Positions 28,791 to 29,170 of a stretch of 36,195 bases of DNA are shown in pieces (positions within the stretch are counted from its first letter, which is position 1; each line of letters starts with the position of its first letter). Below the pieces are notes generated by a model. It worked only from the letters and a program-made list of their open reading frames with translations, was not told the DNA's origin and did not search any database. The position numbers and the translations under genes were made by a program. This DNA comes from Bacteroidota bacterium (GTDB taxonomy: Bacteria; Bacteroidota; Bacteroidia; UKL13-3), in contig CANGGG010000029.1 of assembly GCA_947453415.1 (NCBI GenBank), forward strand, positions 1 through 36,195. Direction: 5' to 3'.

Positions 28791-28821
28791 TTTGCTTATA
28801 AACCAAATATTTTTACTTTTG
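28791..28821 (+). promoter_or_regulatory. Consensus Bacteroidota promoter for the tRNA unit
   Basis: TTTG (28791-28794), 19-base spacer, TACTTTTG (28814-28821). This is the best promoter match in the window. It overlaps only the end of the preceding gene's trailer and would transcribe the tRNA remnant and then the intact tRNA. Confidence 0.75.
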
Positions 28822-28847: not shown

Positions 28848-28911
28848 GGCGGGGTGGCTCATAAGTTAGTAAAAGGATTCATATCCGTTAACTAACGGAC
28901 AGCAGTTCTGG
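28848..28911 (+). pseudogene. Decayed tRNA-Met copy (tRNA pseudogene)
   Basis: The stretch starts GGCGGGGTGGCTC, like the intact tRNA 78 bases downstream (GGCGGGGTAGCTC), keeps the GTTAG of the D loop and the anticodon region AGGATTCATA, then diverges. The D stem is broken, the anticodon loop has six instead of seven bases (GGA-TTCATA-TCC, 28875-28886), and no 3' acceptor strand CCCCGC exists. Where the variable loop should be there is a perfect new hairpin CCGTTA-AC-TAACGG (28885-28898). CAGTTC of the T arm is recognisable at 28903-28908. It lies between the promoter and the real tRNA, so it is transcribed as leader. Confidence 0.75.
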
Positions 28912-28925
28912 AAAACAAAAATAAT

Positions 28926-28999
28926 GGCGGGGTAGCTCAGATGGTTAGAGCACAGGATTCATAACCCTGAGGTCGGCAGTTCGATTCTGCTCCCCGCTA
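28926..28999 (+). tRNA. tRNA-Met, anticodon CAT
   Basis: 74-base cloverleaf: acceptor GGCGGGG/CCCCGCT (one G-U at the end), D stem GCTC/GAGC, anticodon stem CAGGA/CCCTG with one A-C mismatch next to the loop TTCATAA, variable AGGTC, T stem GGCAG/CTGCT with loop TTCGATT, discriminator A. CCA is not encoded. CAT could also be the tRNA-Ile2 read by TilS-modified C34, but the 5' GGC start and overall sequence fit elongator tRNA-Met of Bacteroidota better. Confidence 0.93.
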
Positions 29000-29004
29000 C
29001 ATTT

Positions 29005-29041
29005 AAAAAAGCTTTACAGTTTATACTGTAAAGCTTTTTTT
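29005..29041 (+). terminator. Intrinsic terminator of the tRNA unit
   Basis: AAAAAAGCTTTACAG (29005-29019), short loop, CTGTAAAGCTTTTTTT (29026-29041): a perfect stem ending in a T tract right after the tRNA. Confidence 0.92.
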
Positions 29042-29170
29042 GTTTTCAATAAAATTGAACGCATTTTAATTTAAATACTGTTTCAATTCCTGGAATTGAG
29101 TAAATTGACTTCAATAAAAAAAACACCTTAATTTAAAATAGTTAATTATAATTGCAGCATTAATTAAAAA

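Follow-up and report, generated by a model that had tools for sequence, protein, structure and literature searches.

A broken tRNA-Met copy in a Bacteroidota genome, probably a relic of partial tRNA duplication linked to small GIY-YIG nuclease genes

The window (the whole stretch of DNA analysed, 36,195 nt) contains a single tRNA detected by ARAGORN, an intact tRNA-Met(CAT) at 28926-29000, which Rfam places at 28926-28999. Abutting its 5' side lies a broken copy of 78 bases (28848-28925), called as a tRNA by neither ARAGORN nor Rfam, which is homologous to the tRNA from its base 1 as far as GTTC in the T-loop (ending at 28908) and lacks the 3' acceptor strand, an AT-rich linker standing there instead. 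The features of the locus are the following:

28791-28821, forward strand: promoter-like site of Bacteroidetes type, TTTG-N19-TACTTTTG, ahead of the tRNA; exact consensus match, one of eight in the window; also retained, by reading, in relatives that lack the copy
28848-28925, forward strand: broken tRNA-Met copy of the upstream type, reaching from tRNA base 1 to the T-loop, with a linker at its end; supported by alignment; tandem in relatives G001 and G004, absent in G008
28884-28899, no strand assigned: palindrome TCCGTTAACTAACGGA in place of the 3' anticodon strand and variable loop; from sequence search and folding
28900-28908, forward strand: left-over 5' part of the T-arm, with the break after GTTC; from alignment; related upstream copies break in the same region
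28909-28925, forward strand: AT-rich linker up to the intact tRNA; from sequence
28926-29000, forward strand: intact tRNA-Met(CAT); ARAGORN and Rfam
29004-29042, forward strand: terminator-like hairpin and T-run 3' of the tRNA; inverted repeat and T-run by reading

Among the eight neighbouring ORFs, five received Pfam names (Por-secretion-tail protein, PhoH, SAM hydroxide adenosyltransferase, ABM protein and EamA transporter) and three none. No GIY-YIG gene follows the tRNA-Met, and the GIY-YIG searches described below gave no match on the window contig.

Local alignment of the copy to tRNA-Met scores 25.5; the highest score among 2000 shuffles is 16.5, and the best non-overlapping place elsewhere in the window reaches 14.0. 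This confirms the claim of an earlier note on this DNA that a decayed copy without the 3' acceptor strand starts 78 bases before the intact tRNA; the copy is, however, 78 bases long, extending to 28925, and not 64. The palindrome described in that note is indeed present, but when folded in isolation (33 nt) TCCGTTAACTAACGGA forms a 6-bp stem with a 4-base loop rather than a perfect hairpin around two bases, and what was called a new hairpin is new relative to the tRNA only, belonging to a palindrome family common to the class. Similarly, a promoter-like site does precede the copy, but its description as the best in the window is unproven, because eight exact matches to the consensus, which we take to be that of Bacteroidetes-type promoters, occur there.

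In the best fold of the whole 78-nt copy (z -2.73) the palindrome hairpin is absent, GGAT pairing with ATCC and GTTAGT with ACTAAC. Among 37 distinct forms of the eight variable bases of the palindrome, the outer pairs are complementary in 84% and 92% of cases versus 54% and 57% expected from column make-up (with Y and R positions in the search pattern taken into account), and the inner two pairs show no clear excess (41% and 59% versus 48% and 53%), a pattern that fits a predicted 6-bp stem with a 4-base loop.

The same locus was compared in nine relatives of the genus (G001-G009; the window genome is G000), of which eight are assessable (all except G007). The upstream copy is present in three (G001, G002 and G004) and absent in five (G003, G005, G006, G008 and G009), and both its number and its type vary between these close relatives: in G001 one copy is full and another is cut where the contig stops; in G004, which has the longest tRNA-Met array seen in the genus, six copies spaced 77-78 bases can be told apart, split three and three between two contig ends; G002 has a single copy, patched at another site with a different palindrome; and G009 has no upstream copy and carries downstream copies with three tRNA 3' ends. 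Since the relatives differ in its presence, the upstream copy is, as judged from these comparisons, a species-level gain or loss and not a conserved leader. The failed duplication envisaged in the earlier note is supported, in the sense of a partial one, by G008, where an identical leader is joined straight to tRNA-Met, and by the tandem 77-78-base units of G001 and G004. True copy number in G000, G001 and G004 may be understated, because the contigs of G001 and G004 break inside arrays. An assembly artefact is unlikely, as related copies occur in G001, in G004 and, in another form, in G002, and a long array lies inside the single contig of the relative G029. In G009 (L012, 1613-2173), some patched downstream tRNA-Met copies are interrupted, within the palindrome, by a repeat that is GC-rich and carries short inverted repeats.

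These comparisons bear on whether the leader copy might be a functional RNA (a decoy, processing or regulatory element) kept by selection, a reading close to the regulatory leader of the earlier note. Its position predicts co-transcription with the tRNA, and both the excess of complementary outer pairs and the folding z score would agree with it; yet five of the eight assessable relatives have the same promoter-like site and tRNA without the copy, the copies differ in number and type, no clear excess is seen for the inner two pairs, and the palindrome hairpin lies outside the best fold of the full copy. We therefore regard a selected RNA as improbable, and the regulatory leader is disfavoured by the presence of the upstream copy in only three of the eight assessable relatives of the genus.

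Partial tRNA copies beside an intact tRNA are a classical sign of tRNA-gene integration, and the arrangement in the window would, on that ground, suit an attachment-site remnant of a prophage or integrative element. However, the copy is an abutting upstream 5' part and not a distant 3' part, none of the eight neighbouring ORFs tested is an integrase, and no second copy of the tRNA-Met was found in the genome, so that neither the integrase nor the distal 3' tRNA duplicate of a tRNA-targeting element, nor the att-like duplicate elsewhere that the earlier note had in mind, is seen. This reading, which we consider very improbable, was rejected, and the note's relic of an integrated element survives in altered form only: such copies recur beside GIY-YIG genes located behind tRNAs.

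Elsewhere in G000, the tRNA-fMet locus on contig C30 (L105, about 820-1540) has one patched copy on each side of the tRNA and two GIY-YIG genes, the first uninterrupted and the second truncated. On C57 (L106, about 870-1780), an array of broken copies precedes tRNA-Arg(TCT), with palindromes in the D-arm (TCACGCCTAGCGTGA) and in the variable region. On C18 (L110, reverse complement, about 660-1330), tRNA-Pro is followed by repeated 3' fragments that have TCACGCGAGGCGTGA in place of the T-loop; a GIY-YIG gene lies among these fragments. On C12, two copies of GCATTCATATCCGTTG lie about 400 bases apart (positions 2051 and 2447; L057 and L058), ARAGORN calling no tRNA in L058. The label fMet refers here to an anticodon-stem motif, ARAGORN giving tRNA-Met for both Met and fMet. 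Across the genus, the tRNA-fMet locus is plain in G003 and G005, shows a small 3' remnant with a patched T-loop in G002 and G006, and has nuclease units around the tRNA in G000; in G001 and G009 nuclease units with fMet-type copies are found on contig ends.

The palindrome TCCGYYAGYYRRCGGA (at most one mismatch) occurs at nine places in G000, namely the window copy, two copies of tRNA-fMet, five of tRNA-Arg and one odd place; eight of the nine are thus broken tRNA-Met, fMet or Arg copies, in which it replaces the 3' anticodon strand and variable loop. Within the family, 18 of 64 genomes match the palindrome form beside an anticodon-type loop (at most three mismatches; these are pattern matches, not confirmed singly as tRNA copies), and within the class exact matches are found in 26 of 395 genomes and 21 of 196 genera, with three matches for a reversed-pattern control. 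The pattern finds only copies patched beside the anticodon loop, so D-loop and T-loop patches are uncounted. Among the matches listed, the palindrome also occurs away from tRNAs, at 68 forward places in G185 and at many in G187 and G260, and it is therefore not specific to the tRNA-array system; the dispersed copies that were read often lie in the loop of another hairpin. At L276, L282, L285 and L287 the dispersed palindromes sit in the loops of other hairpins, as if replacing hairpin loops generally. Three Y1 transposase-type matches were found in G000. The idea that the palindrome is a relic of the stop codon of a nuclease ORF came from G032, where the nuclease ends ...GFISVS inside the palindrome, and was dropped, as most of the linked nucleases listed have a different end and the window copy belongs to the upstream type.

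A scan of the contigs of named genomes gave at least 117 loci in many genera, and the pairing, break-point, GIY-YIG and phylum counts reported here use the 117 listed. An intact CAT tRNA lies on the same strand no more than 2.5 kb away in 77 of these: 74 of the 99 in Bacteroidota, the single loci of Fidelibacterota and LCP-89, and one of two without phylum. No such tRNA lies near the six listed loci of Pseudomonadota, the four of Bacillota, the three in three other phyla or the one labelled only Bacteria. The 77 loci hold, among the matches listed, 118 palindrome copies, 43 upstream of the tRNA (35 loci) and 75 downstream (55 loci). In all 43 listed upstream copies 9-22 nt are missing from the tRNA 3' end, and in 35 of them the break lies 14-21 nt from that end, in or beside the T-loop; of the 75 listed downstream copies, 50 keep the full tRNA 3' end, all 50 without the 5' part, and the T-loop is kept in most (break points are approximate, being obtained by ungapped extension). 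Many of the listed loci are related, and the counts therefore do not represent independent events.

These copies are linked to small GIY-YIG nuclease genes, an association first read at 80 of the 117 listed loci. Among the matches listed, 89 GIY-YIG ORFs, mostly of about 80-90 aa, are found in 63 of the 117 loci, and for 74 of the 89, in 52 loci, a tRNA-Met or fMet on the same strand lies upstream within 1.5 kb. Residues Y5, Y16, G18, R26, H30 and E63, which we presume to be catalytic in GIY-YIG enzymes, are invariant in all 15 linked nucleases aligned. Pfam assigned GIY-YIG to the two ORFs tested, other family libraries adding no further name and PHROG giving no match for two ORFs; phage comparison of one ORF returned two weak phage matches, and the nearest solved structures by sequence, again for one ORF, are the UPF0213 proteins 1ywl (E 3.7e-5) and 1zg2 (6e-5), followed by SLX1 7wme (0.026).

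In the family of the window genome, 35 of 64 genomes match a profile of the linked nucleases. Counting one locus per genome in the best 30 of these 35, 22 loci have a same-strand tRNA less than 600 bp ahead of the best GIY-YIG ORF, these tRNAs being Met, Asp, Val, Arg, Pro, Ala, Leu, Asn and Ser; of the other eight loci, six are at contig edges and two have no tRNA. A palindrome match occurs in nine of the ten family genomes with a GIY-YIG match of at least 120 bits versus nine of the 54 others (Fisher p 1.5e-5, uncorrected for relatedness). The association is incomplete in both directions: half of the 18 palindrome-bearing genomes have no GIY-YIG match of at least 120 bits, and G030 has one with no palindrome match. 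No GIY-YIG match was found at E 1e-12 in G004 despite its long Met array. A tree of 61 nucleases groups weakly by tRNA type, with 12 changes versus 18.6 when shuffled, near-copies included, and a strict nuclease clade per tRNA type is unsupported. The tree set was obtained from the 89 ORFs by removing 26 (15 without a Met or fMet tRNA and 11 with fewer than 60 aa from the domain start), and then L250_5959 and L227_1612 from the remaining 63.

In three loci that were read closely (L211, L225 and L325), the tRNA part, terminator and nuclease gene repeat together, and units are identical or near-identical in L211, L225 and L241. The repeat unit in Longitalea luteola and Niastella caeni consists of the tRNA 3' part, the terminator and the nuclease gene, whose start codon falls directly on the T-run of the terminator (by reading). 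In L225 and L211 the position of the GIY-YIG start codon, directly on the T-run of the tRNA terminator, was noted, which suggests that these genes may be expressed by terminator read-through. The long array of G029, at L325 (C1:169500-175500), lies within the single contig of that genome, and arrays are therefore not merely contig-end artefacts; it comprises 11 patched 5' tRNA-Asn fragments 80 bases apart, an intact tRNA-Asn, and then eight GIY-YIG ORFs and seven patched 3' ends about 410 bases apart. Its upstream units break in the anticodon arm (by reading), so the T-loop break is not universal.

What the comparisons show directly is how the units are built, that they recur across genera, that they are associated with GIY-YIG genes and that close relatives differ in copy number. 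Taken together, these observations make it probable that the tRNA-Met locus underwent GIY-YIG-driven partial duplication and that the window copy is what is left of it, one upstream unit of a tRNA-anchored array. Alternatively, slippage or unequal crossing-over may have produced an ordinary tandem duplication that later decayed and received a genome-wide REP-like palindrome; the GIY-YIG link would then be incidental, for instance if both favour tRNA loci. Such an origin would agree with the dispersal of the palindrome in some genomes (where the copies read lie in the loops of other hairpins), with the G004 array lacking a detected nuclease and with the three Y1 transposase-type matches in G000; it does not readily account for the position of the best GIY-YIG ORF right behind a tRNA in 22 of 30 family loci (the best 30 of 35 genomes, a figure that carries no formal chance estimate), for the joint repetition of tRNA part, terminator and nuclease gene in L211, L225 and L325, or for the near confinement of the palindrome in G000 to tRNA copies. 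We consider it unlikely.

Several known systems offer partial parallels. The rtT repeats of E. coli tyrT resemble the arrays described here in that part of a tRNA gene recurs in tandem within the transcript of that gene; the rtT units are 3'-end fragments, and to our knowledge they have neither a GIY-YIG gene nor a palindrome patch. UPF0213 and SLX1-like GIY-YIG proteins provide the nearest structures for one ORF and share the Pfam GIY-YIG assignment of two, and we know of no tRNA linkage or array setting for that family. REP palindromes of RAYT (Y1) transposases are likewise short, genome-typical and dispersed in some genomes, but the palindromes here replace tRNA loops in tandem copies; on this comparison G000, which has Y1 genes, has the palindrome nearly confined to tRNA copies, and G185, G187 and G260 have it at many places among the matches listed.

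The closest known process is the segmental amplification driven by SegB in phage T6. This free-standing GIY-YIG homing endonuclease of T-even phages cuts within tRNA genes at the motif RAWTSGAAC (23 of 83 sites) and drives tandem amplification of tRNA-segB (PMC13096335). The motif is the reverse complement of GTTCSAWTY and fits the tRNA T-loop. As far as the available part of that report goes, the likeness extends to a small GIY-YIG nuclease beside a tRNA gene, tandem amplification of tRNA and nuclease together, a junction involving the 3' region of the nuclease gene, and a cutting motif matching the T-loop; unlike the chromosomal arrays here, the phage system amplifies intact tRNA genes under selection, and palindrome patches, present here, are unmentioned for SegB in that part (PMC13096335). 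A nuclease gene adjoins the tRNA at the fMet locus of G000 and at many related loci but not at the window locus, tandem tRNA-nuclease units are seen in relatives (G029, L211, L225 and L241) but not in the window, and all 15 aligned linked nucleases conserve the catalytic-type residues. By analogy, the window copy resembles SegB-type segmental amplification without counting as a member, because no GIY-YIG gene adjoins its tRNA. A free-standing GIY-YIG enzyme acting at tRNA genes is thus already known, and the chromosomal, palindrome-patched form looks new: no description of tRNA-linked GIY-YIG arrays in Bacteroidota was found in a literature search that covered mostly papers outside subscription.

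From cutting and amplification by SegB in phage T6, together with the anatomy of the arrays, we infer that the nuclease causes the partial duplications, and assign a cutting site and a role to the palindrome as follows. In this class of arrays, a small GIY-YIG endonuclease gene lies behind a tRNA gene, and its product would cut in or near that tRNA gene. Recombination would then duplicate one of two sides: upstream units would come from the left side, comprising the leader and the tRNA as far as the T-loop, and downstream units from the right side, comprising the middle and 3' end of the tRNA, the terminator and the nuclease gene. In surplus copies a tRNA loop would be replaced by a short palindrome typical of the genome, which may block a full tRNA and perhaps also further cutting; in most downstream copies, however, the T-loop is kept, so that no T-loop cutting site would be removed there by the palindrome. 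The window copy would be a surviving left-hand unit, and since the window locus has no nuclease, this would have been either lost or acting in trans from another tRNA locus, G000 having an uninterrupted one behind tRNA-fMet. Against this reading stand the missing nuclease in the window and, at the threshold used, in G004, the occurrence of the palindrome elsewhere, the different break in tRNA-Asn, and the absence of the palindrome hairpin from the best fold.

More broadly, and as a tentative proposal only, Bacteroidota chromosomes may carry widespread, undescribed tRNA-parasitic GIY-YIG elements that sit behind a tRNA gene, are expressed by terminator read-through and repeatedly cut and duplicate the host tRNA, the surplus copies being rendered immune and non-functional by loop palindromes; the window copy would then be a nuclease-free footprint of such an element. 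The palindromes replacing one tRNA loop form a separate puzzle, with an anatomy that is clear and repeatable. If the interpretation is true, tRNA genes across a phylum would house a chromosomal nuclease system like the tRNA-amplifying one of phages, natural arrays in isolates and in a single-contig genome would be available for the study of nuclease-driven amplification, and the tRNA pseudogenes and small copy-number arrays overlooked by tRNA finders would have a cause that can be tested.
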